Source: a virus
Reading direction: 5' to 3' (one strand)
Length of the DNA: 21,038 nucleotides
IMG/VR virus record: IMGVR_UViG_3300010318_000075
Coordinates: 1 to 21,038 of that record
In this document: in pieces, positions 4,328-19,655 of the stretch
Numbering within the stretch: the first letter of the stretch is position 1
Layout of the letters: every line of letters starts with the position of its first letter
Translations under genes and position numbers: made by a program
The notes under the pieces: generated by a model
The model's database searches: none
Seen by the model: only the letters and a program-made list of their open reading frames with translations
Told to the model about the DNA's origin: nothing

Positions 4328-4335
4328 TATTTACT
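4328..4335 (-). promoter_or_regulatory. Late promoter-like element (AGTAAATA) before a GTG start
   Basis: Six bases separate this TAAATA-type element from the GTG at 4319-4321. The spacing agrees with the other late genes and supports GTG as the real start. It overlaps the last base of the upstream DUF1501 gene. Confidence 0.4.
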
Positions 4336-5576
4336 CACAACAAAATACTATTAATAGGTTTTCCTCTATCAGCTAATTTAAATGGCCTTCCTTCTGGCGA
4401 TACAAGTTCTTGTTCAATTGGAAGGTTTGCAGCGCGTGCAATTGTCGCGTTAAAATCCATAGGTGAAACTTGTCCCTCAACAACCTTCATACCTTTTTCA
4501 TCAGTAGTGCCGTATACTTGCCCGCCGCGAATGCCCGCACCAATTAAAACACCACTAAATGCACTTGGATGATGATCACGGCCATTATTAATATTAATAT
4601 TCGGTGTACGACCAAAATCAGTCGCAATAACTATTAATGTTTTACTTAATAACCCGGATGATTGAAGATCATTAATAAGTGCATTTACAGCTTTATCTAA
4701 TATTAGTAGTTTTGTTTCGAGTGCTTCAAAGTTATTAACGTGTGTATCCCATCCGCTATCCTGTACCTCGATAAACTTGCAGTTACCCCTCTCAATCAAT
4801 CTCTTTGCAAGACAACATCCCTGTCCAAAACGGCTATCACCATATTTCTCACGAATATGTTGACTTTCTTTTGATAAATCAAATACTTCTAAATCTTTAG
4901 AATTGAGAAGGCGAATTGTTTGATCATAAAATTCAGTGTAGCTCTTCTTCTGTGGATTCAATAAGCTTTGTGTTTCCGGTTCCATTTTTTTAAGAATGGA
5001 AACGCGCTTCGAAAACTCTTCAGTGCTCTTAATAGTTGAGTTATCAAGTCCACGAACAGGATCAGAAATTGGAACCGGTGCATACTTTTTAGGCATCCAG
5101 CCAGCTCCTGGATGATCAGCAGGTCCGCTTATAAGCACGTTTTGTGGAATGGTGTGTAGCTTTCCAGTATCTTGCAAATTGCACATCCAAGCGCCTAAAT
5201 TAGGATGAACAATAGTTCCAATCTTTTTAAAACTAGTACGTTGAATATATTGTGCTTGCTCGTGTGCTCCTGTGGTTACAGTCAAAGAACGTACAATTGC
5301 CATCTTATCTCCATGTTTTGCTATATTTGGCAAGTGCTGAGATATTTCATGACCAGCAGAAGTTCTAATTGTAGAGAATTCTCCCTTTACATCCTCATTA
5401 GTTTTTGGATCCCATGAGTCGAGATGACTCATTCCACCATTCATATAAAGATAAATAATGTGCTCTGCAGTCTTTGAATTTGCAGGAAGCGCGCCTCGCA
5501 CTTCAGGCATAATAGATACTCCTAAGCTAGTGTATGCAAGATTTAATATAAAATCACGACGAGTTGTTGTTTTCAT
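4335..5576 (-). CDS. DUF1501 family exported protein (alkaline-phosphatase-like fold)
   Basis: A 413-aa member of the DUF1501 family, typical of Planctomycetota and Verrucomicrobiota and related in fold to alkaline phosphatases and sulfatases. It opens with a Tat-type signal (TTRRDFI, Arg6-Arg7, then a hydrophobic stretch), as family members do. Family motifs are present: LYMNGGMSHLDSWDPK near residue 50, GWDTH, a DFGRTP motif, and GRDHHPSAFSGVLIGAGI, containing the likely metal-binding His and Asp residues. Its biochemical role is unknown even in bacteria. In those genomes it is usually paired with a DUF1549/DUF1553 gene, and that partner is also here, two genes upstream. Its ATG overlaps the stop of the small gene upstream (ATGA), so the two are translationally coupled. 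A bacterial-type exported protein inside a phage structural cluster is unusual. Confidence 0.9.
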   Translation of the reverse strand: MKTTTRRDFILNLAYTSLGVSIMPEVRGALPANSKTAEHIIYLYMNGGMSHLDSWDPKTNEDVKGEFSTIRTSAGHEISQHLPNIAKHGDKMAIVRSLTVTTGAHEQAQYIQRTSFKKIGTIVHPNLGAWMCNLQDTGKLHTIPQNVLISGPADHPGAGWMPKKYAPVPISDPVRGLDNSTIKSTEEFSKRVSILKKMEPETQSLLNPQKKSYTEFYDQTIRLLNSKDLEVFDLSKESQHIREKYGDSRFGQGCCLAKRLIERGNCKFIEVQDSGWDTHVNNFEALETKLLILDKAVNALINDLQSSGLLSKTLIVIATDFGRTPNININNGRDHHPSAFSGVLIGAGIRGGQVYGTTDEKGMKVVEGQVSPMDFNATIARAANLPIEQELVSPEGRPFKLADRGKPINSILL

Positions 5577-5782
5577 GGTTGTGCTGCTTTAAGTTTTATA
5601 TAATACTGCGGATCTTTCGCAAGGCGATCGCGTACAATTTTTTCCGCAATTTTTGGATCATCTGTATATTTCATTTCAATATCGATACCAATTTGTAAAT
5701 GTTTGTGAAACGATTTTTTATCGGTCATATTTTCTAATATGATATTATTATAATTGTTCCATATGTTTAAATTATCACTCAT
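5573..5782 (-). CDS. Small DUF5661-like protein, 69 aa
   Basis: A 69-aa acidic protein with no signal peptide. The second half (IGIDIEMKYTDDPKIAEKIV, then RDRLAKDPQYYIKL) follows the DUF5661 pattern, in which a 'type E.EHT.DP..A..IA..HLAE.P.YY..L' segment is conserved in many phage and bacterial proteins of unknown function. It lies between the DUF1549 and DUF1501 genes, sharing one base with the former's stop (TAATG) and four bases with the latter's start (ATGA). The three genes form one coupled unit. A TATAAATA directly abutting its ATG is also the end of the upstream coding frame and may be chance. Confidence 0.75.
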   Translation of the reverse strand: MSDNLNIWNNYNNIILENMTDKKSFHKHLQIGIDIEMKYTDDPKIAEKIVRDRLAKDPQYYIKLKAAQP

Positions 5783-7545
5783 TATTTATAAAATTTAAAT
5801 TCTGTGGTATTTATAAGCGTCCATATAGCATCTTTTTCTGATACATTTGCAAGCATTGATTTTTCACGCACAGTTGATGGACGGCATAGGATAGCTTTGA
5901 AAAGAATCTCTACTTGCTCATTTGGTGTTTTATTTCTTATACGTTCAAATAAATATCCTGTTTCGCTAGATGCAATATCGACGATTTGTCCATTCATAAA
6001 AGAAATTACTTGTGTTACGGATCCTTCCGTGGATGATGTATCTATTAATTCTCTATCCGATCTGCCCAACTGTTCAAGAATTGTATTCATTGCACTTGTA
6101 TCGTTTATTTCAGATGCTCGCACAAGTGTGAGATTTTTATATTTTGGTGCATCGGTGTATTTATTTCTTATAACTGTGTTATATTGATCAACGCGATTTT
6201 TTACATTTTCAACATTAATATCCTCAATATCAATTTTCATTGTCTTAACATATTCACTATCGAAATTAGTTCTATATTTCTCAGGTAGCTCTACAACAAG
6301 TGCAAGCGTTGAGTCCCATAGTTGTTCAGCTGTCAGTCTGCGCTGAACCGGACCAATGAAAACAAAACGACTACTGTTAGCATTTTGACCTTCATAAAGA
6401 GCTCTTTCAAATAACTGCGTTTTACACAAAATGCGAATAAACTCTTTTGTATCATAATTTATTTTAATAAAAATGCTGGATAATAAGTTTAGCAGAGGAC
6501 TATTCAACTTACTACTATCTTGTATATTATCATATTCTCTAATTATATATTGACCAAAAATTTGACACCACATTCTATTCACAAAGTTTTTTGTAAATGT
6601 AGGATGTTTTGAACTTGTGAGCCAATTTACTGCGTCGACTCTCAGATCTTCACTCTTCGGTAGAACCTTTCCATCCAAGGTTTTTGCACTCACTGTACTA
6701 TTTGGCTTACCATCACTGTATTGATAATCATGTGGCAATTTAAGCGTTCTTGAGTTATCTAAAATTACAGATGCTTGAGTTGCGCGAAGAAAATTATTAA
6801 GTCTATTATTAAGTCCTCTATTTTTTTCAGGATCTTCTTTTATGAGTGCCTCGACATCAGTTCTTAACATTTTAAGCTTAGCGTTGTACTCTGTACTCGT
6901 TTTATTAAGGACAATTTGAGGAAAAAACGCTGCCATTTCATAAAATTGCATTTGTGAAATGTCTTGAAAAGGATCATCGTGGCACTGTGCGCAACTAATA
7001 TCTGTTCCTGCAAACACTTTGAATGTAGCAATTAAATTATCAAGTGGCATTCCATAATCTCTGTAGTAATACCCGGTAGCAGGATTATCATAATAGCTAC
7101 CTGAACTTAAAAGCAGATCCCTTACAAAAATATTATATGGTTTATTTTGCGCAATTGAATTCTTAATATACTCAATATATGGTATTCCATTGAAATTATT
7201 AATTGGTGAAAGTCTTTCTCTCAAACGTAGCGAATTAGCCCAATAATTATACTGAGAAGATACAAATCCGGGATGATTTATAAGAAAATCAATTAAACGC
7301 TTACGCTTATCTTTCACTTGTATCTTGTTAAAAGACTCATACTCAAAATATGTTGGAATTCTTCCAATAATTGTGAGGTAAGCTCGCTTAACAAAATCAT
7401 CATCACTAATAATGCTGTTGGGCTGTACTTTTGCTAATTTATATTGATCCATTAACACAGTATCTATTTGATTGCTATAATTCTGCGCTATTGATGAAGA
7501 AACACAAAAAAATATTACACAAACAAGTTCAATTACACCTTTCAT
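5782..7545 (-). CDS. Secreted DUF1549/DUF1553 protein with a CxxCH motif
   Basis: A 587-aa protein beginning with a Sec signal peptide (hydrophobic residues 4-20, cleavage likely near SIAQ). The DUF1549 region follows (about 30-210) and contains CAQCHDDPF at residues 185-193, a CxxCH that could bind c-type heme and that is characteristic of this planctomycete family. Next is a DUF1553-like region (about 300-430): VNWLTSSKHPTFTKNFVNRM, FGQYI, then QRRLTAEQLWDS. Many planctomycete members are longer and carry extra N-terminal cytochrome domains; this is the compact form. Its function in bacteria is not established; it is commonly encoded beside DUF1501, as here. The gene starts after a TAAATA-type late element at 7561-7568 with a leader of about ten bases, so it is probably expressed late with the virion genes. 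Confidence 0.9.
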   Translation of the reverse strand: MKGVIELVCVIFFCVSSSIAQNYSNQIDTVLMDQYKLAKVQPNSIISDDDFVKRAYLTIIGRIPTYFEYESFNKIQVKDKRKRLIDFLINHPGFVSSQYNYWANSLRLRERLSPINNFNGIPYIEYIKNSIAQNKPYNIFVRDLLLSSGSYYDNPATGYYYRDYGMPLDNLIATFKVFAGTDISCAQCHDDPFQDISQMQFYEMAAFFPQIVLNKTSTEYNAKLKMLRTDVEALIKEDPEKNRGLNNRLNNFLRATQASVILDNSRTLKLPHDYQYSDGKPNSTVSAKTLDGKVLPKSEDLRVDAVNWLTSSKHPTFTKNFVNRMWCQIFGQYIIREYDNIQDSSKLNSPLLNLLSSIFIKINYDTKEFIRILCKTQLFERALYEGQNANSSRFVFIGPVQRRLTAEQLWDSTLALVVELPEKYRTNFDSEYVKTMKIDIEDINVENVKNRVDQYNTVIRNKYTDAPKYKNLTLVRASEINDTSAMNTILEQLGRSDRELIDTSSTEGSVTQVISFMNGQIVDIASSETGYLFERIRNKTPNEQVEILFKAILCRPSTVREKSMLANVSEKDAIWTLINTTEFKFYK

Positions 7546-10401: not shown

Positions 10402-11421
10402 TTAATTTTTGCCTGCGTAAATATCAATCGTTCTTGTGCTAAGATCAGGGCCTTTAGTAAACATATCACTTGCAGCCTTATTAAGGTTTAGCGATTTACG
10501 AGATCCAATATTTTTTCTTCTGTGTGTTGCAGCATATGTTGCGATATTGAAGATATCATATGCATTTTGATCAGTTGCAACAAACCGCTGTTGCTTTACT
10601 GTTTTATCAAGCACTGCAACACCTCGCTTACCGTAATCGTTAATAATGCGTTCATAAAATGGCATGAGTTCATCAACACCATTTTTTGATAAACAGTCTG
10701 CTACTGCCTTGACCTCGTGAAACGAAGCACGTGTATTTCTTAATGCATTAACACGATCTGTAATGCTCTTACTTGCTGTCTTTCCTTTTGTATAGCTAAT
10801 GAACTGCTTATCAATGTTAGATGATTTACCTAGAACGCGTGTTGCAAGACGCTCACGTGTTGTCATGCCATTAGTACAAAGAAGGCGAAGGTAAAAATCA
10901 GTAAATGATTGTGTATCATATCCAATAGAGATTGTAGTTCCAAAATTCCAATCATCACCAATACCACATTCAATTATTTCATCAACGTTTGAATTAATGC
11001 TAACAGTAGCGTTATGGCTGTTAAAGGTAATATCGTGAAAAGAACGATCCGTATCTTCAAACGCATTCATAAGAGCATCGATTCTATTAGAAAAATCTAA
11101 ATTCTCTTCTTCACGCGGCGCCTTCTTTAGAACACTAACAACTTGATTATTATTATCAACAATAGCGCCAAGACGCTTATTCTTATCAATAGTGCTAAGA
11201 GCATCTTGTAAATCGGTCCACTTATTTTCGTGCGAATCGATAACCTTTCTTGAAAGAGTATTTTTAATGCCAAGGAGATCTAATAGTTGTGTATCTTGAA
11301 CAACTTTATGTCCTTTGATAAAAACTCTCTTGTCTCCACAAGCAATATCACGAACATTAAATGGAATAACTCTGTGGCGTTGAACTGTCTTTTTAACTGA
11401 ATCAATTGTATTTTTACTCAT
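10402..11421 (-). CDS. DUF932-like phage protein, 339 aa
   Basis: A 339-aa soluble protein. The central FTDFYLRLLCTNGMTTRERL resembles the conserved 'F..RLVCTNGM' core of DUF932 proteins, common on phages and plasmids and of unknown molecular function. The N-terminal VFIKGHKVVQDTQLLDLLGI and ENKWTDLQDALSTIDKNKRL are also typical of large-phage relatives. There is no signal peptide or catalytic motif that I recognise. The ATG at 11419-11421 is preferred because a longer frame would begin inside tRNA-Leu(CAA). No late octamer precedes it; an AT-rich TATATTTTG sits just upstream, so it may be an earlier-class gene. It ends 13 bases before the hairpin. Confidence 0.65.
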   Translation of the reverse strand: MSKNTIDSVKKTVQRHRVIPFNVRDIACGDKRVFIKGHKVVQDTQLLDLLGIKNTLSRKVIDSHENKWTDLQDALSTIDKNKRLGAIVDNNNQVVSVLKKAPREEENLDFSNRIDALMNAFEDTDRSFHDITFNSHNATVSINSNVDEIIECGIGDDWNFGTTISIGYDTQSFTDFYLRLLCTNGMTTRERLATRVLGKSSNIDKQFISYTKGKTASKSITDRVNALRNTRASFHEVKAVADCLSKNGVDELMPFYERIINDYGKRGVAVLDKTVKQQRFVATDQNAYDIFNIATYAATHRRKNIGSRKSLNLNKAASDMFTKGPDLSTRTIDIYAGKN

Positions 11422-11481
11422 ATACAAAATATAATATAAACAGTTTATTTGGCAACTCTTTTTTATTCCATGTTCAAAAAA

Positions 11482-11558
11482 TGGTAGCTGAGGTGGGATT
11501 CGAGCCCACATAAAATAGATTTTGAATCTATCGCGTATACCAGTTCCGCCACTCAGCT
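11482..11558 (-). tRNA. tRNA-Leu(CAA) with short variable loop
   Basis: Acceptor AGCTGAG/CTCAGCT, A73, CCA; anticodon arm ATAGA-TTCAAAA-TCTAT gives CAA. The D arm (TGGCGGAACTGGTATACGC) looks Leu-like, but the variable loop is only TTTAT. T loop CTCGAAT keeps U55 and has C54. Confidence 0.9.
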
Positions 11559-14635: not shown

Positions 14636-14723
14636 TGGAACGCTGTGGAGGAATTGAGCCTCTTGACTTCCATCCCACTATTTAACGTCGTTGGTTTAGA
14701 AGACCAATGTGGGGACACAGCGC
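14636..14723 (-). tRNA. tRNA-Arg(UCU) lacking a D arm
   Basis: Acceptor GCGCTGT/ACAGCGT, T73, CCA; canonical Arg anticodon arm TTGGT-CTTCTAA-ACCAA; T arm GAGG-CTCAATT-CCTC. Only nine bases (GTCCCCACA) separate acceptor and anticodon stems, so no D arm can form, while the region before the T arm is about 27 bases. CCCAC in the linker is complementary to GTGGG in that variable region and may form a replacement helix. Confidence 0.7.
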
Positions 14724-14737
14724 ATTTGTTTAAATGT

Positions 14738-14812
14738 TGGCGAGACTACCCGGTAACGCTCCGAGGTTTTCGACGTGACAAGCCGATGTAATAACTTCTA
14801 TACTATAGTCCC
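14738..14812 (-). tRNA. tRNA-Asp(GUC)
   Basis: Acceptor GGGACTA/TAGTCTC, G73 (Asp identity), CCA; anticodon arm TCGGC-TTGTCAC-GTCGA gives GUC. The D loop lacks GG (AGAAGTT) and the T loop is AGCGTTA: G55 and an inverted A54/U58 pair. Confidence 0.8.
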
Positions 14813-14816
14813 AATC

Positions 14817-14891
14817 TGGTGCCTCTAGTTAGACTCGCACTAACACCCTACTGCTTATGAGGCAGTCGTTCCACTTTTGAACTATAGAGGC
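14817..14891 (-). tRNA. tRNA-Met(CAU), elongator-like
   Basis: Acceptor GCCTCTA/TAGAGGC, A73, CCA; anticodon arm ACTGC-CTCATAA-GCAGT gives CAU. It could be elongator Met or an Ile tRNA with modified C34. D loop AAAAGTG with T loop TGCGAGT (G55) is the non-canonical elbow. Confidence 0.85.
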
Positions 14892-14902
14892 ATGTAAAAT
14901 AC

Positions 14903-14976
14903 TGGAGCTCCATGACAGAATCGAACTGTCAACTGAAAATTACAAATTTCCCGTTTTACCATTAAACTAAAAGAGC
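14903..14976 (-). tRNA. tRNA-Thr(UGU)
   Basis: Acceptor GCTCTTT/ATGGAGC with one U-U mismatch, T73, CCA; anticodon arm GGAAA-TTTGTAA-TTTTC gives UGU. D loop AATGGTA and T loop TTCGATT are canonical. Confidence 0.85.
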
Positions 14977-14981
14977 AATTA

Positions 14982-15057
14982 TGGTTGCGGAAGAAGGATT
15001 TGCACCTACGACCTACTGGTTATGAGCCAGCCGAGCTAACTACTGCTCCATTCCGCA
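14982..15057 (-). tRNA. Initiator-like tRNA-fMet(CAU)
   Basis: The D arm TGGAGCAG...AGCTCG, the GGCTCATAACC anticodon region, the AGGTCG variable loop and the ending CCGCAACCA match the bacterial initiator closely. The first pair is T1-A72 rather than the usual C1xA72 mismatch, but still weak. T loop TGCAAAT has G55 and the D loop AGTAGTTA has A18-G19, replacing the GG and TTC of host initiators. Confidence 0.82.
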
Positions 15058-15064
15058 TTTTTAT

Positions 15065-15244
15065 TTATTCTTGTTTTGGTTGATTATTTCCGTAAATTGA
15101 GGTATGTGTGAAAAGTTCTTCTCTTATTTTTGAATCGGCAACTACACTCCATCCAAAATTAGTTAGCTTTTTTTCAATAAAAGTCATATCATCATATGAT
15201 AGATCGAGTTTATCGTGTATTTCTTTTAAAAGATCTGTAAGCAT
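15065..15244 (-). CDS. Small hypothetical protein, 59 aa
   Basis: A 59-aa frame from the ATG at 15242-15244 to a TAA at 15065-15067, filling the gap between tRNA-Lys(CUU) and tRNA-fMet. The protein begins MLTDLLKEIHDKLDLSYDDM and contains FGWSVVADSKIREELF; it is helical and acidic, with no recognised family. The ATG lies 13 bases after the CCA of tRNA-Lys, so the tRNA transcript may provide its leader. Coding is inferred from the exact fit between two tRNAs and from composition. Confidence 0.55.
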   Translation of the reverse strand: MLTDLLKEIHDKLDLSYDDMTFIEKKLTNFGWSVVADSKIREELFTHTSIYGNNQPKQE

Positions 15245-15257
15245 AAAGATAAAAATT

Positions 15258-15332
15258 TGGTACTTCCACTCGGACTCGAACCGAGACTAACGAGTTAAGA
15301 GCCCGCTACTCTACCAATTGAGTTATGAAAGC
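15258..15332 (-). tRNA. tRNA-Lys(CUU)
   Basis: Acceptor GCTTTCA/TGGAAGT, A73, CCA; anticodon arm GCGGG-CTCTTAA-CTCGT gives CUU. D loop AATTGGTA and T loop TTCGAGT are canonical. A 69-base AT-rich spacer (15333-15401) with long T runs separates it from tRNA-Asn. Confidence 0.9.
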
Positions 15333-15401
15333 GTTTTTATATTATAAATTGGTATTTTTTAAAATCAACATTTTTTTTTATTTTTTTACTATATTAAAAA
15401 C

Positions 15402-15494
15402 TGGCACTGCAGGATGGGTTCGAACCATCATACCGTTCAAGACGGATTACAAGACATTAACAGTGTCTCCTCTTACCAGTTAGAGTACCGCAGT
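15402..15494 (-). tRNA. tRNA-Asn(GUU) with long variable arm
   Basis: Acceptor ACTGCGG/CTGCAGT, G73 (Asn identity), CCA; canonical anticodon arm AGACA-CTGTTAA-TGTCT. A 22-base variable region contains a clear stem, CCGT/ACGG with loop CTTGA. tRNA-Asn is normally class I; a second, ordinary tRNA-Asn lies at 18730-18805. Elbow canonical (CTGG, TTCGAAC). Confidence 0.85.
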
Positions 15495-15499
15495 AAAAA

Positions 15500-15578
15500 T
15501 GGTGCTCTTAGTGGGATTCGAACCCACACCAAACATGCGCCCTCAACGCATGGCCTCTACCAGTTGGGCTACAAGAGC
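15500..15578 (-). tRNA. tRNA-Leu(GAG) with short variable loop
   Basis: Acceptor GCTCTTG/TAAGAGC, A73, CCA; anticodon arm ATGCG-TTGAGGG-CGCAT gives GAG. The variable region is about seven bases, again without the class II arm. Elbow canonical. Confidence 0.88.
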
Positions 15579-15583
15579 AAATA

Positions 15584-15657
15584 TGGTAGGAAATAAAGGA
15601 CTTGCACCTTTTTCTTCGACGTGTCGTGCCGACGCTTTACTCTTAAGCGAATCTCCC
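15584..15657 (-). tRNA. tRNA with GAC anticodon (Val?) and C33
   Basis: Acceptor GGGAGAT/ATTTCCT, A73, CCA; D arm GCTT-AAGAGTA-AAGC; T loop TGCAAGT (A18/G55 elbow). The anticodon stem TCGGC/GTCGA equals that of tRNA-Asp here, but the loop is ACGACAC, giving GAC with C33 instead of the near-universal U33. Decoding ability is uncertain. Confidence 0.65.
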
Positions 15658-15987
15658 AACTAAAACTTTATTATCAACAAGATGCACAAACGGCGCATTC
15701 GTTATCTCCTTACCCTCACAAACAAACTGACTGTTTTTATAAGGGTTATAAGTTACAACTTTACAAGCTGTAGAATCGCCTCTTTCACATAATGTACCTT
15801 CAATAAACGCATGTACATTTTTGCGGTGCTGCTTTAGCACACGCTCTCTACCCTTCTGACTAACTCTAAAAACAGCATCACGTAAAAATAGATTATCACT
15901 GTGCATCAACAGAAGCCAGTGTTTTTTTCTACGCGATAAAACACTAAATGTTTGTTTGTGTATGTTTCTATATACACGTATTTTCAT
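15643..15987 (-). CDS. Conserved small phage protein, 114 aa
   Basis: A basic 114-aa protein of a type common in large phages. Features: an opening MKIRVYRNIHKQTFSVLSRR, then LRDAVFRVSQKGRERVLKQH and RKNVHAFIEGTL, the last being the recognisable family block. Function unknown. The ATG overlaps the last base of the CCA of tRNA-Leu(UAG), so mature-tRNA processing would leave an mRNA with essentially no leader. Its last 15 bases overlap the next tRNA. Confidence 0.68.
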   Translation of the reverse strand: MKIRVYRNIHKQTFSVLSRRKKHWLLLMHSDNLFLRDAVFRVSQKGRERVLKQHRKNVHAFIEGTLCERGDSTACKVVTYNPYKNSQFVCEGKEITNAPFVHLVDNKVLVGRFA

Positions 15988-16063
15988 GGTACTCGCGGAG
16001 GGATTCGAACCCTCAACATTATGATCCTAAATCATACGCCTCTACCAATTGGGCTACACGAGC
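15987..16063 (-). tRNA. tRNA-Leu(UAG) with short variable loop
   Basis: Acceptor GCTCGTG/CGCGAGT, A73, CCA; anticodon arm TATGA-TTTAGGA-TCATA gives UAG. The variable loop is five bases (ATGTT). D loop AATTGGTAGA and T loop TTCGAAT are canonical. Confidence 0.9.
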
Positions 16064-16074
16064 GAATATGTTAA

Positions 16075-16151
16075 TGGCATGGCGTGCGGGATTCGAACCC
16101 AGCGTTTTCCGAGTGAAAGTCGGGGATCCTAGCCAACTAGATGAACGCCAC
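16075..16151 (-). tRNA. tRNA-Glu(UUC)
   Basis: Acceptor GTGGCGT/ACGCCAT, G73, CCA; anticodon arm with CCGA-CTTTCAC-TCGG core gives UUC. D loop AGTTGG and T loop TTCGAAT are canonical. Confidence 0.88.
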
Positions 16152-16200
16152 ATTTACAAAAACAATATATTATCATTCTAAGTTTGTTCAACTTTTTTTT

Positions 16201-16584
16201 CTAAAATTTCATATTACAGACAGTAATATGCAATCCGAGGTATTTTTTACCATCCTTAATGCTGAGTATTTGTTTTATTTCCTTTTCAAGATCAAACTTG
16301 ACTGGCATCCAAAAGTTGACTCTGCTTCTAAACATTCGCTCTGGATCGTATTCAAATTCTACCTTACGACCATTTAGATGCGCAACTGCTTTAAAATCAC
16401 AGATTTTATGAATATCTGGATTAACAATTGTGATGTGAGCTTTGTACTTTGGTAATTGTGTTTTTACTGTATTATAGTGGTATTTTGTTATGTGCCACTG
16501 ATAATATTTACACACATCGATGTGCGTGTTGATACGCACTCCTTTATTTGAAACTGCAATAGTTCCATTTCCTTTGATGTACAT
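16201..16584 (-). CDS. 2H phosphoesterase-like protein, 127 aa
   Basis: A 127-aa protein with two H-x-T motifs, His50-Ile-Thr52 (KAHITIVNPD) and His119-Ile-Thr121 (GLHITVCNMK), about 69 residues apart. This is the signature of 2H phosphoesterases (LigT/cyclic phosphodiesterase fold), which act on 2',3'-cyclic phosphates or cyclic oligonucleotides. In phages the fold includes the anti-CBASS protein Acb1, and related enzymes take part in RNA end repair. Here it sits in a tRNA array between tRNA-Ile and tRNA-Glu, so tRNA repair or anti-signalling are the two obvious roles; neither is shown. It is short for the fold, so a divergent or unrelated protein remains possible. Confidence 0.5.
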   Translation of the reverse strand: MYIKGNGTIAVSNKGVRINTHIDVCKYYQWHITKYHYNTVKTQLPKYKAHITIVNPDIHKICDFKAVAHLNGRKVEFEYDPERMFRSRVNFWMPVKFDLEKEIKQILSIKDGKKYLGLHITVCNMKF

Positions 16585-16606
16585 GTTTTTTTTACTTTGT
16601 ATTGGA

Positions 16607-16709
16607 TGGTAGGAGTGGTGGGAATCGAACCCACATTACGCCGGCTTATCTGGCCGGTGCTGTACAAGATTATAAGTCCTGCCCTAAGGCCAATATTAGC
16701 AACACTCCC
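16607..16709 (-). tRNA. tRNA-Ile(UAU) with 30-base variable region
   Basis: Acceptor GGGAGTG/CACTCCT, A73, CCA; canonical loop CAGGA-CTTATAA-TCTTG gives UAU. A 30-base variable region contains a strong hairpin, CCGGC-CAGATAA-GCCGG, itself shaped like an anticodon arm (5 bp, 7-base loop). Alternative reading: this hairpin is the anticodon arm (GAU with A33) and the D loop holds an insertion. Confidence 0.75.
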
Positions 16710-17272
16710 GCAGCATAAAAATTATTGAAGGTTTCAACGACTCCTACAAACGTATTCTGTATTTTCTAGAACGCCTATTCGGCAACGGCATACAGAATTC
16801 TTTAGCCGAAAGTGGTCGCCGGGTTAACTCGTAATTATTCCTCTCTCTCCCGTCTGATGGGATACAAACGATACTTCATACGCCGGCCATTTAGAAATTA
16901 ATGTGGGTGAGATTCCTGACTACTCACAAGTTACATTCACGCTATGTTATTCAGTCACTACCTAATAGGGTAATTACTCCTATTATTACTAGTAGAGAGG
17001 GTTGGTTGCCTCCAAGACAATACAGCTATCAGTATAAAAATACGATTTGTTGTCTTCTTACGTCACTCAGAGTTGTACGACTCTGGCTATTTTAACCTTA
17101 CACAGCGATGAACTCTTCAACCTGCTTCACATCTTTTCAGATGTTACACAGTACATTATGGGCTAGCGACCCATTATTCTGTCACCACGAATTCAAAAAA
17201 TTTCAAAGAACTATCAGATTTTTAAATGTAGATGCTTTTTCTATTCTATCAACTTATTTTTTTAACGAAATA
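16710..17272 (-). ncRNA. Candidate large structured noncoding RNA (~560 nt)
   Basis: This stretch between tRNA-Ile(UAU) and tRNA-Thr(CGU) has no convincing gene but many helices: 16754-16762 with 16790-16798 (9 bp perfect), 16907-16911/16923-16927, 16964-16969/16979-16984, 17014-17020/17050-17056 enclosing a GTAT-AAAA-ATAC hairpin, 17068-17073/17080-17085, 17129-17134/17139-17144, and 17058-17062-type small hairpins such as ATGGG/CCCAT at 17058-17074. TTACACAG is repeated at 17098 and 17144, flanking a hairpin. It looks less AT-rich than its surroundings. Size and position beside phage tRNAs recall the ROOL and GOLLD RNA classes, but I cannot confirm a match. Strand assumed from the tRNAs. 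Confidence 0.55.
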
Positions 17273-17348
17273 TGGAGGTCATAGTCGGAATTGAACCAAC
17301 AACCTGCACATTACGAAAGTGCTACTCTACCAATTGAGTTATATGACC
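17273..17348 (-). tRNA. tRNA-Thr(CGU)
   Basis: Acceptor GGTCATA/TATGACC, T73, CCA; anticodon arm GCACT-TTCGTAA-TGTGC (one U-U) gives CGU. D loop AATTGGTA and T loop TTCAATT are canonical. Third Thr isoacceptor in the window. Confidence 0.9.
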
Positions 17349-17364
17349 GTTAATTCAAATTATC

Positions 17365-17450
17365 GAGAACAAAAGACACGTGTGAACTCGAACACACCTA
17401 GAGCCTTCGCCGGCCCTGTTCAACCTATAAACTTCGATGCTTTTGTTCTC
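17365..17450 (-). ncRNA. tRNA-like element closed by an 11-bp stem
   Basis: GAGAACAAAAG pairs perfectly with CTTTTGTTCTC over 11 bp, longer than any acceptor stem. Inside are a D-like arm (GTT-TATAGGTTG-AAC), an arm AGGGC/GCTCT with an eight-base loop lacking U33, and a T-like arm GTGTG/CACAC with TTCGAGTT. No CCA follows. It is tRNA-shaped but unlikely to decode; a mimic, decoy or decayed gene. Confidence 0.5.
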
Positions 17451-17453
17451 TGT

Positions 17454-17492
17454 TAGTTGACTATTTGAGCTTCGAACCCCGTTTATCAACTA
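17454..17492 (-). ncRNA. 39-base minihelix with a T-loop-like sequence
   Basis: A perfect 7-bp stem (TAGTTGA/TCAACTA) encloses GGGGTTCGAAGCTC, which resembles a T arm. It looks like an acceptor/T-arm minihelix without D and anticodon arms, lying directly beside the previous tRNA-like element. Confidence 0.35.
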
Positions 17493-17527
17493 TTCCGGAA
17501 TTTTTAAAACTTCTAAAAAAAATATAG

Positions 17528-17651
17528 CGCTGACAGCAGGATTCGAACCTACACCACGTCGTTAAAAGCGAAGTAACTCAATTCTACACTACAGTTAAGA
17601 GAACAGGCAAATAGAGAAATTTTACGTGCTCTGCCGTTGAGCTATGTCAGC
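17528..17651 (-). tRNA. Interrupted tRNA-Lys(UUU) with ~53-base insertion
   Basis: Acceptor GCTGACA/TGTCAGC, D arm GCTC-AACGGCA-GAGC, canonical Lys loop CTTTTAA, 3' anticodon strand CGACG, T arm GTAGG-TTCGAAT-CCTGC. The 5' anticodon strand is split: CGT after the D arm and CG just before the loop, separated by about 53 bases. Removing them restores a perfect CGTCG/CGACG stem and a 71-base tRNA. CCA is not encoded (CTA). A complete tRNA-Lys(UUU) lies at 20837-20911. Confidence 0.65.
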
Positions 17652-17653
17652 AA

Positions 17654-17730
17654 TGGTAACTCTGGATGGATTTGAACCATCGTCTTCTGTTTCAGAGACA
17701 GATATAATAACCAGGCTATACCACAGAGTA
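17654..17730 (-). tRNA. tRNA-Gln(CUG)
   Basis: Acceptor TACTCTG/CAGAGTT (first pair U-U, weak as typical of tRNA-Gln), A73, CCA; anticodon arm TCTGT-CTCTGAA-ACAGA gives CUG. D loop with CTGG and T loop TTCAAAT are canonical. Confidence 0.85.
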
Positions 17731-17824
17731 TGGCGGAAGACTGTGGACTTGCACCACATGACTATTATTTGTAGTCACATTTCGTTTAGCAAACGAATCC
17801 AGCAACTTTGCTGATTAATCTTCC
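17731..17824 (-). tRNA. tRNA-Ser(GCU), class II
   Basis: Acceptor GGAAGAT/GTCTTCC, G73, CCA; anticodon arm TTCGT-TTGCTAA-ACGAA gives GCU. A proper long variable arm with TGACTA/TAGTCA is present, as expected for Ser. D loop AAAGTT with T loop TGCAAGT is the A18-G55 type. Its 5' ten bases overlap the endonuclease gene. Confidence 0.88.
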
Positions 17825-18432
17825 AACTTACTAATAAAATCTTTTCTCCATACTATGAGTTTCTCAGGAAAGGCACCCCACTTTGCTCTATCTAAATCAG
17901 TCTCGTAGCCTTTTACCTCAATGTATGAATTCCACTCGACAACAAAAAAATCAGGCTGATATGTCGAATCTCTACCATCCGGTTTAATATAATTAAAACG
18001 TTTTTTATTACGGCTCCACGTCACACCGATACTGTCCAAATATCTCGCAGCTTTAAGTTCCCACGTTCCGTCGACTTTAATTTTACCTGCAATAGCTGAA
18101 TTGTACTCATATTTTTTACACCGGCCACATGTTGACTCCCACCCGCTCATATAAAGTTCTTTTTTCTTTTTAGAAATACTCTGTCTATATTCATCAGAGT
18201 ATTTTTTTCTCGGCTTATGAAGCCCGAGACGCTTTGTTTTGTTGTATGTTTCTCTCGCTTGCGCTACTCGAGTATCCTCCTTAGTGAGACCTTTATTCCA
18301 TGGAATGCGGCCTTTTTTTGCACCACAAGATCTTTTTCTCCTTTTAGGGTTGCTTTCACATGAAATTTCATGCGCTACAAGACCTCCCCTATTGGCAACG
18401 ACTCTATTACAAAACATGCATTTAAAACTCAT
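17815..18432 (-). CDS. Zinc finger/NUMOD/PD-(D/E)XK homing endonuclease, 205 aa
   Basis: A mosaic mobile endonuclease. Residues 5-25 form a C2HC-type zinc finger (Cys5, Cys8, His21, Cys25). A NUMOD3-like segment follows (KGRIPWNKGLTKEDTR, then YSDEYRQSISKKKK), then a Cys pair, and a PD-(D/E)XK nuclease core: WELKAARYLDSIGVTWSR, Pro160-Asp161 in YQPDFF, and Glu172-Val-Lys174 in YIEVKG. It probably cleaves tRNA-gene DNA to spread itself, as freestanding enzymes in phage tRNA arrays do. The ATG at 18430-18432 is chosen since a longer frame would start inside tRNA-Pro. The gene ends within tRNA-Ser. Confidence 0.85.
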   Translation of the reverse strand: MSFKCMFCNRVVANRGGLVAHEISCESNPKRRKRSCGAKKGRIPWNKGLTKEDTRVAQARETYNKTKRLGLHKPRKKYSDEYRQSISKKKKELYMSGWESTCGRCKKYEYNSAIAGKIKVDGTWELKAARYLDSIGVTWSRNKKRFNYIKPDGRDSTYQPDFFVVEWNSYIEVKGYETDLDRAKWGAFPEKLIVWRKDFISKLED

Positions 18433-18439
18433 ACTAACA

Positions 18440-18516
18440 TGGTAGCGTAGGCGAGAATCGAACTCGCGACTTCTTGCTCCCAAAGCAAGCGCTCTACCAA
18501 GCTGAGCTACTACACT
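18440..18516 (-). tRNA. tRNA-Pro(UGG)
   Basis: Acceptor AGTGTAG/CTACGCT, A73, CCA; anticodon arm CTTGC-TTTGGGA-GCAAG gives UGG. D arm GCTCAGCTTGGTAGAGC and T loop TTCGATT are canonical. Confidence 0.92.
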
Positions 18517-18521
18517 GTATA

Positions 18522-18598
18522 TGGTGCGCCTACGGAGAATTGAACTCCGTCTTAAAGTTTGGAAGACTCCCGTGCAGAACCGTTAACACTTTAGACGC
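18522..18598 (-). tRNA. tRNA-Gly(UCC)
   Basis: Acceptor GCGTCTA/TAGGCGC, A73, CCA; anticodon arm GGAGT-CTTCCAA-ACTTT gives UCC. D loop with CGGT and T loop TTCAATT are canonical. Confidence 0.88.
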
Positions 18599-18609
18599 AG
18601 ATTAAATTG

Positions 18610-18721
18610 TAGCTCTTGAGGACTCGAACCCCATCTCTCACACGCGTGTGAGCGCTTTCCGTGTGTCAGCACGTCGCTGTATTAAAGATCTGACAATCTT
18701 TTGTAGCGCCAAATTAAGCTA
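18610..18721 (-). ncRNA. Enlarged tRNA-like element without a D arm
   Basis: Ends form a 7-position acceptor-like stem with one mismatch (TAGCTTA/AGAGCTA). The 3' part has a good T arm (TGGGG-TTCGAGT-CCTCA). Between them are AAAGAT/ATCTTT, CAGC/GCTG, and a 16-base palindrome CTCACACGCGTGTGAG (18637-18652). No D arm fits; GCGCT after the acceptor is complementary to AGCGC in the long region before the T arm, the same layout as the two Arg tRNAs. No CCA. Confidence 0.45.
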
Positions 18722-18729
18722 TTGAGCAG

Positions 18730-18805
18730 TGGCACACGAGCTTGGGATCGAACCAAGTTCAATAGGGTAACAACCTACCGGCCCAACCGTGGTGCCTTCT
18801 CGTGT
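18730..18805 (-). tRNA. tRNA-Asn(GUU), ordinary form
   Basis: Acceptor ACACGAG/CTCGTGT, G73, CCA; anticodon arm GTAGG-TTGTTAC-CCTAT gives GUU; short variable loop. D loop with CGGTTGG and T loop TTCGATC are canonical. Duplicates the specificity of the long-armed copy at 15402-15494. Confidence 0.88.
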
Positions 18806-18820
18806 TTTTAAATTTAAATA

Positions 18821-18894
18821 TGGCAGCTCCTGCTGGTATTGCACCAACTTCATCTGGGTCAAAGCCAGATGCATTACTTTTATGCTAAGGAGCT
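18821..18894 (-). tRNA. tRNA-Gln(UUG)
   Basis: Acceptor AGCTCCT/AGGAGCT, G73, CCA; anticodon arm TCTGG-CTTTGAC-CCAGA gives UUG. D loop AAAAGTA and T loop TGCAATA are the A18-G55 type, unlike the other tRNA-Gln in the window. Confidence 0.88.
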
Positions 18895-18907
18895 ATTTTT
18901 TGTAAAG

Positions 18908-18981
18908 TGGCACGGAGTAGAGGAATTGAACCCCTATAAGTAGTTTTGGAGGCTACCGTTCTGCCGTTGAACTAACTCCGC
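18908..18981 (-). tRNA. tRNA-Trp(CCA)
   Basis: Acceptor GCGGAGT/ACTCCGT, G73 (Trp identity), CCA; anticodon loop CTCCAAA on a GTAG/CTAC stem gives CCA. D loop AACGGCA and T loop TTCAATT are canonical. Confidence 0.9.
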
Positions 18982-18991
18982 ATTTAAAAAT

Positions 18992-19102
18992 CTATTTTAT
19001 TGTTATACTATATGCACCATTTTGCATATCTGTTATCGAAAATCCTAATTCAGAAACAATATCTCTTACCTTATCTGCAGCACTATATCTGCTTACGGAG
19101 CA
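18992..19102 (-). pseudogene. Fragment resembling the C-terminus of cysteinyl-tRNA synthetase
   Basis: An open frame without a start codon ends in TAG at 18992-18994 and encodes YSAADKVRDIVSELGFSI followed by TDMQNGAYSITIK. This resembles the C-terminal helix and tail of CysS (pattern 'A..AD.IRD.L.ELGI...DT..G'). Only about 35 residues remain and a stop precedes them. The 5' part can also be read as a tRNA 5' fragment (GCTCCGT-AA-GCAG-ATATAGTG-CTGC). It is probably decayed DNA. Confidence 0.35.
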
Positions 19103-19114
19103 TTAAATTAATGC
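19100..19114. repeat. 15-base perfect inverted repeat
   Basis: GCATTAA-A-TTAATGC, symmetrical about one base, in the gap between the 19149-19529 gene and tRNA-Trp. It could be an operator or weak hairpin at the end of the upstream gene; no U run follows. Confidence 0.4.
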
Positions 19115-19148
19115 TTATTTTTATAGTATATATCTATATGTATACTAG

Positions 19149-19529
19149 TTATTGCTGAAACGCCTTGCCTAATAAAGGTCTCTGTTGTGGGCTAGCAACA
19201 GCTCCTGAGCTGAGCTTTTCAACTTCTTGTTTGAATTGATCTAAGCTTTTGAATTGTTTTTTATCTAAACTTGCAAGTATTTGCTGATCATTTGGCATAG
19301 GATATCTAAAAGATGTTCCTAAAACTTTATTTGCATCACCTAAAACAGAAACTGTAACCGTTCCATTATAGACTGCTACGCGTGCAACATCTTTTCCATT
19401 GATGTATACCATATATTGGTCTGCGTTGCTTGGTGATTTACCTTGCTGCTGCAATTCAACTTTTTCTTTAAAGAGTACGCTCTTAACATACATTTCCGCG
19501 AGGATATCTTGATCTTTTTTTATGAGCAT
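19149..19529 (-). CDS. Late protein of unknown function, 126 aa
   Basis: A 126-aa soluble protein with a helical N-terminus (DQDILAEMYVKSVLFKEKVE), a short beta-rich centre (YMVYINGKDVARVAVYNGTV, VSVLGDANKVLG) and a helical, Gln-rich end. No family is recognised. An exact TATAAATA at 19535-19542 lies five bases before the ATG, so it is expected to be a late, leaderless transcript and may be a minor virion or assembly protein. It is isolated from the structural cluster. Confidence 0.65.
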   Translation of the reverse strand: MLIKKDQDILAEMYVKSVLFKEKVELQQQGKSPSNADQYMVYINGKDVARVAVYNGTVTVSVLGDANKVLGTSFRYPMPNDQQILASLDKKQFKSLDQFKQEVEKLSSGAVASPQQRPLLGKAFQQ

Positions 19530-19534
19530 ATTAA

Positions 19535-19542
19535 TATTTATA
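19535..19542 (-). promoter_or_regulatory. T4-type late promoter octamer (exact TATAAATA) on the ATG
   Basis: TATAAATA, five bases, then the ATG at 19527-19529: a T4-style start would fall on the A of the start codon. Confidence 0.65.
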
Positions 19543-19575
19543 TATTTTCTGAAAAATTTTTGAATAATAGAAAAA

Positions 19576-19655
19576 TGGTAGGCATGGCAGGAATTGCACC
19601 CGCGTGTTTCTAATTAACCTTTCAACGCGTTCGTAGCGCGAGGGTATACATGCCC
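19576..19655 (-). tRNA. tRNA-Arg(ACG) lacking a D arm
   Basis: Acceptor GGGCATG/CATGCCT, A73, CCA; canonical Arg loop CTACGAA on a CGCG/CGCG stem; T arm GCGGG-TGCAATT-CCTGC (G55). Only seven bases (TATACCC) join acceptor and anticodon stems, so there is no D arm, while the variable region is about 21 bases and includes GGT, complementary to ACC of the linker. Same layout as tRNA-Arg(UCU). A34 would normally be edited to inosine. Confidence 0.7.

Follow-up and report, generated by a model that had tools for sequence, protein, structure and literature searches.

Phage tRNA-Arg genes that probably specify tRNAs with a circularly permuted core

Can a tRNA gene that has no D arm between its acceptor and anticodon stems still specify a complete tRNA? 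The question is raised by two tRNA-Arg genes, with anticodons UCU and ACG, in virus record IMGVR_UViG_3300010318_000075, whose 21,038 bases are hereafter called the window. The window's proteins (portal PF07230, tail sheath stabilizer) point to a T4-like phage, and its minus strand carries a dense tRNA cluster. The original prediction, made from the letters alone, described both genes as D-armless, with a variable region that might pair with the linker joining the acceptor and anticodon arms. The coordinates of the two genes, both on the minus strand, were confirmed, as were the lack of a D arm at the usual site, the linker lengths (9 nt in UCU, 7 nt in ACG), the encoded CCA and the complementarities CCCAC/GTGGG and ACC/GGT. 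The UCU gene reads GCGCTGT-GTCCCCACA-TTGGT-CTTCTAA-ACCAA-27 nt-AGAGG-CTCAATT-CCTCC-ACAGCGT-T-CCA and the ACG gene GGGCATG-TATACCC-TCGCG-CTACGAA-CGCGT-21 nt-GCGGG-TGCAATT-CCTGC-CATGCCT-A-CCA. The comparisons described below make it very probable that both encode working tRNA-Arg molecules whose core is circularly permuted relative to the canonical one.

Neither gene is called by ARAGORN in the window. Against the Rfam tRNA model (RF00005) the ACG gene scores 23.6 bits, below the gathering cut-off of 29 bits that delimits the canonical cloverleaf; no RF00005 match was reported for the UCU gene, and no described family in the Rfam scans covers either one. Some other members of the ACG kind (type A, below) score 30.8-34.3 bits, just above the cut-off; most members fall below it or are misread. 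In place of a local D hairpin, each gene has its linker of 7 or 9 nt, which pairs with the variable region. A tRNA scan with no D-arm requirement picks up both genes, and three shuffles of the window yield nothing that scores comparably. The minimum free energy fold of the single UCU sequence contains a different hairpin and does not show the linker helix; the alignment of homologues does.

Homologues fall into two architectures. Type A, that of the ACG gene, comprises a 7-bp acceptor stem, a linker U8-A9-U-x-y-z-N, the anticodon arm, a spacer (mostly NGAAA), the complementary triplet z'y'x', the segment UAA-YU-GG-N20..AU and a 5-bp T arm. In type B, that of the UCU gene, the acceptor stem has 8 bp and is followed by a linker GNN-CCCAC-A, the anticodon arm, a variable region containing GUGGG-ANGGA, and a 4-bp T stem. 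The acceptor and T arms had been predicted to be normal in both genes; this holds for ACG (7/5), but UCU is better described with the 8-bp acceptor stem, which includes a G8-C65 pair kept in 24/24 distinct type B rows, and the 4-bp T stem. In type B, the strands of an additional 3-bp helix flank the GUGGG-ANGGA segment, and because GUGGG pairs outside this helix, the predicted structure is a pseudoknot.

Type A sequences were collected from two pattern scans of IMG/VR, one for the ACG kind and one for a different linker (hits in at least 119 and at least 120 stretches, respectively, not all of which contain a member), and from cultured phages, yielding 173 distinct sequences from 224 loci. The linker helix occurs in 13 combinations, including ACC/GGU, CUC/GAG, CCC/GGG, CGG/CCG, CCG/CGG, CGC/GCG, UCC/GGA, GCC/GGC, CAC/GUG and AAC/GUU. 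It is wholly Watson-Crick in 155 of the 173 sequences (shuffled mean 44, maximum 62), and every sequence has at least two pairs. Since the pattern for the ACG kind fixed the helix, a fair set was defined as the 97 sequences whose position 11 is not A; here the helix is wholly paired in 79. In a gapless alignment of 68 type A sequences 100% of the cells are paired, both-side changes occur at 3/3 pairs and 0/500 shuffles reach the score, while sliding the helix partner by one column lowers pairing to 38-58%. RNAalifold proposes this helix unprompted. The 5-bp helix of type B is likewise paired in every row (100%), and two of its pairs show double changes (CCCAC/GUGGG, CCCUC/GAGGG, CCCGC/GCGGG, CCUGC/GCAGG, CCAGC/GCUGG, CCAAC/GUUGG), and its extra helix appears as GAC/GUC, AGC/GCU, ACU/AGU and ACG/CGU; the T stem of type B varies on one side only. 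Altogether, covariation among homologues, named in the original prediction as the check on linker pairing, bears that pairing out for both the 3-bp and the 5-bp helix.

What follows the 3' strand of the type A helix reads as a D loop: A14-A15-Y-U-G18-G19-N20. Because the variable region thus contains a D loop (G18, G19, N20) as well as a D5' strand, the D arm appears to be relocated rather than absent; "D-armless" is apt for the usual site but not for the molecule, and the comparison with animal mitochondria that had accompanied the term is the wrong model. The GTTAAxTAG sequence reported as common to both variable regions is a coincidence rather than a sign of homology: in ACG it belongs to the D5' strand and D loop, whereas in UCU most of it precedes the D5' strand (GUGGG) and it is missing from most relatives.

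Contacts between this loop and the T loop were examined in 75 TATACCC sequences, where the search pattern fixed neither positions 18-19 nor 55-56. G18G19 accompanies U55C56 in 67 sequences, G18A19 accompanies U55U56 (6/6) and A18G19 accompanies G55C56 in two; mismatched combinations number zero. The A18G19/G55C56 pair consists of the window's ACG gene and its relative (L089/L015), and a third example is found in relative G001. On a tree built without the tested columns, the fewest changes are 48 for helix type, seven for the 18-19/55-56 state and 11 for the amino acid. Fully supported independent comparisons, three for identity and one for 19-56, all go in the predicted direction; their number is small because genes this short yield weak branch support.

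Nucleotide 20 follows the amino acid: type A members have A with an Arg anticodon (88/88) and U with an Ile anticodon (81/81). Among canonical tRNAs from the same contigs, A20 is present in 118/123 tRNA-Arg, and other amino acids mostly have U or C. In type B, GGA is found in 23/23 distinct tabulated sequences, for which it was part of the selection, and it is also invariant in alignment A2. Ile members always carry A73. A20 is the chief determinant for Escherichia coli arginyl-tRNA synthetase (ArgRS; PMC9976931). These patterns bear on the strongest rival, a truly D-armless tRNA resembling mitochondrial tRNA-Ser(AGY), in which a linker/variable-region helix would hold the linker and a D loop would be missing. 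Such a molecule would account for the empty D-arm site and for the helix, which is real, but a conserved GG, an amino-acid-specific N20 and joint changes with T-loop positions 55-56 are how a D loop behaves, and we consider it improbable.

We thus favour a permuted core. The canonical order is nucleotides 8-9, D5', D loop, D3', anticodon arm, variable region (V) and T arm; the permuted one would be acceptor / D3' / anticodon arm / V / D5' / D loop / T arm, that is, canonical blocks 10-21 and 22-47 would be exchanged. Linker and variable region would form the D stem, which would enclose the anticodon arm; as in canonical tRNAs, D3' would be followed immediately by the anticodon stem and D5' by the D loop, and the relocated D loop would dock on the T loop through 18-55 and 19-56. 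The arrangement would create three new joins (9 to 22, 47 to 10 and 21 to 48). In the canonical core, 9-12-23 and 10-25-45 form base triples and 21 stacks on 15-48; we infer that the new joins link residues lying close together there. The conservation, helices, tertiary covariation and identity nucleotide are observed directly in the homologues; the three-dimensional fold, charging and use in translation are predicted from them. Recognition by host ArgRS would rely on A20 and the anticodon, and during infection the UCU tRNA would decode AGA/AGG and the ACG tRNA CGN codons. Our guess is that the rewired elbow may spare permuted tRNAs from host enzymes recognising an ordinary D arm.

Several observations weigh against this model. 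Seventeen type A sequences have only 2/3 pairs (GCC/AGC, CCC/AGG), hence the helix can be shorter. The window's own ACG gene has A18 and G55 rather than the canonical G18-U55. The 19-56 covariation relies on 6 + 2 sequences, with branch support for a single independent comparison. U8, A14 and A15 are invariant, partly since the search required TAA, so that these tertiary contacts offer no variation. Finally, where A/G73 is expected, the discriminator is U in 17/88 Arg members of type A and in several of type B.

On sequence evidence, the putative permuted tRNAs are a large two-branched family that is not limited to the window phage. A near-identical relative of the ACG gene, its acceptor stem changed on both strands, is present in IMG/VR contig 3300032327_001717. 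Unannotated relatives of the UCU gene occur in Escherichia phage Av-05, Acinetobacter phages KARL-1 and Kimel, oyster phage HSd1 and, in two copies, one with anticodon CCU, Aeromonas phage AhSzw-1. A blastn search with the KARL-1 gene (type B) hit 343 phage records; in 52 the match covered 80% or more of the query. Nearly all homologues sit in unannotated gaps; exceptions are annotated as "tRNA-Leu" (EGole), "tRNA-OTHER" (Trina) or as some apparently spurious open reading frames. Plasmids gave no match to either type, E. coli genomes none to type B, and 198 Bacteroidota genomes none in a search made without a positive control. No description of such tRNAs was found in the open PMC literature, preprints and subscription papers being outside the scope. 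Phage tRNAs usually include readers of codons rare in many hosts, and the anticodons of the permuted members (UCU, CCU, ACG, UCG, CCG; GAU, UAU, CAU) include such readers.

Four loci contain candidate permuted-core tRNA-Tyr(GUA) genes (L413:564-649, L183:6927-7015, L289:3894-3993 and L302:3109-3206), with putative linker/variable-region helices CCCAUC/GAUGGG, CCUCGC/GCGGGG, CCCCAC/GUGGGG and ACAUCA/UGAUGU. The L413 candidate seems to combine A18G19 with a T-loop GC, like the window's ACG gene.

Are these genes used in translation? Acceptor, anticodon and T stems covary, as does the 19-56 contact (with few supported independent events), which is what functional tRNAs broadly require, and an Arg anticodon together with A20 identifies the window's genes as tRNA-Arg. 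U33 is almost always kept, the genes sit inside tRNA clusters, and CCA is encoded in 65/88 Arg members of type A (it is unencoded in most Ile members). No canonical tRNA-Arg is reported by ARAGORN for the window, nor for the tRNA region of relative G001 (224,703 bases). In G001 and L015 the permuted gene stands between Trp(cca) and Leu(tag), a slot that in relative G002, again adjoining Leu(tag), is occupied by a canonical Arg(acg) gene. In view of the cluster placement, U33, the CCA of most Arg members and the replaced Arg slot, the permuted genes are most likely translation tRNAs. As a separate observation, four type A genes of Streptomyces/Rhodococcus phages (L097, L098, L269, L270) lie near an annotated nucleotidyltransferase gene, and 0/4 encode CCA.

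Phage tRNAs can have defence-related roles, and an odd core could block some host enzymes; the genes might then specify tRNA-shaped decoys or regulators acting outside translation, for instance sponges for host anticodon nucleases. A decoy would not be expected to keep synthetase identity nucleotides by amino acid, to take the slot of a canonical tRNA-Arg or, in Arg members, mostly to encode CCA, and we rate this marginally less probable than the D-armless alternative. A precursor spliced or rearranged into a canonical cloverleaf, in the manner of algal and archaeal permuted tRNA genes, would agree with the permuted order of the core segments, but the acceptor strands stand at the gene ends with CCA 3', no sequence intervenes and helices in the transcribed order account for all segments; we rejected this processing scheme on gene layout as very unlikely. 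Decayed pseudogenes or chance complementarity, for which the rejection of both genes by standard tRNA finders might speak, are refuted by the compensatory helix changes in hundreds of homologues and by the empty shuffles, leaving this the least credible reading of all.

Positions of the two genes and of their elements are collected in the table.

Table. Elements of the two tRNA-Arg genes in window coordinates; D-stem and D-loop assignments follow the proposed permuted core.
Feature	Position	Strand	Basis and remarks
tRNA-Arg(UCU), whole gene with encoded CCA	14636..14723	-	Putative type B permuted core; homologues; model R2 90.1 bits (not independent, window sequence in training alignment)
UCU acceptor 5' strand (8 nt; G8 pairs with C65)	14716..14723	-	Pairs 1-8 all change on both sides
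UCU linker CCCAC, predicted D-stem 3' strand	14709..14713	-	Covaries with 14674-14678
UCU anticodon arm, 5 bp, loop CTTCTAA	14691..14707	-	Double changes at 5/5 pairs
UCU GAC, 5' strand of extra variable-region helix (pseudoknot)	14687..14689	-	Covarying strands in relatives
UCU GTGGG, predicted D-stem 5' strand, after anticodon arm	14674..14678	-	Covariation
UCU putative relocated D loop ATGGA (G18 G19 A20)	14669..14673	-	GGA invariant across type B; anticodons all Arg
UCU GTC, 3' strand of extra helix	14665..14667	-	Covariation in relatives
UCU T arm, 4 bp GAGG/CCTC, loop CTCAATT	14648..14662	-	Scanner and alignment
UCU acceptor 3' strand	14640..14647	-	Discriminator U 14639, CCA 14636-14638
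tRNA-Arg(ACG), whole gene with encoded CCA	19576..19655	-	Putative type A permuted core; homologues; model R1 83.1 bits (not independent, window sequence in training alignment)
ACG acceptor 5' strand	19649..19655	-	Compensatory changes relative to L015:188-267 and alignment A1
ACG linker ACC, predicted D-stem 3' strand	19643..19645	-	Covaries with 19617-19619
ACG anticodon arm, loop CTACGAA	19625..19641	-	Scanner and alignment
ACG GGT, predicted D-stem 5' strand	19617..19619	-	Covariation
ACG putative relocated D loop TAATTAGA (A14 A15 .. A18 G19 A20)	19609..19616	-	Aligned with TAAYTGGA/T of relatives
ACG T arm, loop TGCAATT	19587..19603	-	Scanner and alignment
ACG acceptor 3' strand	19580..19586	-	Discriminator A 19579, CCA 19576-19578

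Other unusual tRNAs were encountered in the window and in related contigs. On the window's minus strand, a tRNA-Lys(UUU)-like sequence at 17524-17656 has ordinary D and T arms with about 50 extra nt between D and anticodon arms; a tRNA at 16610-16709, missed by ARAGORN (Rfam 39.5 bits), has a 33-nt D-loop insertion and an apparent A33; and 17376-17462, part of which fell beyond the folded segment, may be a further tRNA-like sequence, degenerate or odd, whose long acceptor-like helix is GAGAACAAAAG/CTTTTGTTCTC. The tRNA-Ile(UAU) genes of relatives (L010:665-757, L012:2052-2146, L014:1632-1727) and the tRNA-Thr(UGU) genes of L012 and L014 span 88-96 nt with enlarged variable arms, unusual for Ile and Thr tRNAs. 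Two tRNA-Ser(GCU) genes (L171:1027-1101, L177:6228-6302) seem to lack a D arm and to have an ordinary hairpin variable arm, like mitochondrial tRNA-Ser. Phage tRNA-Ser matches to a D-armless Ser query were considered as precedents and set aside, the two examined being annotated with lengths (91 and 87 nt) sufficient for an ordinary tRNA-Ser. Two tRNA-Tyr(GUA)-like sequences (L294:6112-6180, L314:7650-7719), 69-70 nt long, have a linker of 3 nt and a variable region of 14-15 nt and appear strictly D-armless. Elsewhere in the window, DUF1501 and PSCyt2/PSD1 (DUF1549/DUF1553) proteins, which are known mainly from Planctomycetota, are encoded on the minus strand at 4335-5576 and 5782-7545, beside T4-like structural genes; a search with the protein of 10402-11511 gave no relatives.

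Taken together, it is likely, though less so than the reading of the two genes themselves, that permuted-core tRNAs form a widespread natural class in phages of Proteobacteria and Actinobacteria, serving Arg, Ile and apparently Tyr, charged by host enzymes through relocated identity nucleotides and replacing canonical phage tRNAs in translation. The core of canonical tRNAs has a single chain order, and the permuted order would retain their helices, loop contacts and identity nucleotide; if the model is true, L shape and synthetase recognition would be independent of chain connectivity. A large set of tRNA genes, including those of Acinetobacter, Vibrio, Escherichia, Salmonella and Streptomyces phages, would have been missed by annotation. 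One may ask whether a relocated A20 serves ArgRS in charging, whether enzymes that modify the D arm, or anticodon nucleases, ignore permuted tRNAs, and whether the topology could serve for orthogonal tRNAs.

Comparison with known systems places these tRNAs apart from each. With tRNA-Sec (RF01852), type B shares an 8-bp acceptor stem and a weak match, but the UCU gene reaches 23.4 bits (gathering 47 bits), with UCU in place of UCA, and type B has an Arg anticodon, a 4-bp T stem and neither a canonical D arm nor the tRNA-Sec variable arm. In the permuted tRNA genes of red and green algae and archaea the acceptor halves are rearranged in the gene and restored by processing. Those genes share a permuted segment order; however, they place the 3' half before the 5' half, with a circular precursor, whereas here the acceptor 5' strand comes first and CCA last, and the permutation is internal and apparently kept in the mature RNA. 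Animal mitochondrial tRNA-Ser(AGY) and nematode D-armless tRNAs (PMC7609411) likewise have a short linker and no D arm between acceptor and anticodon stems. Unlike them, the phage-encoded molecules have a large variable region, a linker D helix, D-loop/T-loop covariation and a downstream D loop with conserved GG and N20, while type III mitochondrial tRNAs have no D loop anywhere. From canonical tRNA (RF00005) they differ in the apparent swap of core segments 10-21 and 22-47 and, for type B, in the 8/4 acceptor/T stems; the segments and helices are the same, as are the 7/5 acceptor/T stems of type A, the anticodon arm, the T-loop motif, G18 G19, N20 and CCA.

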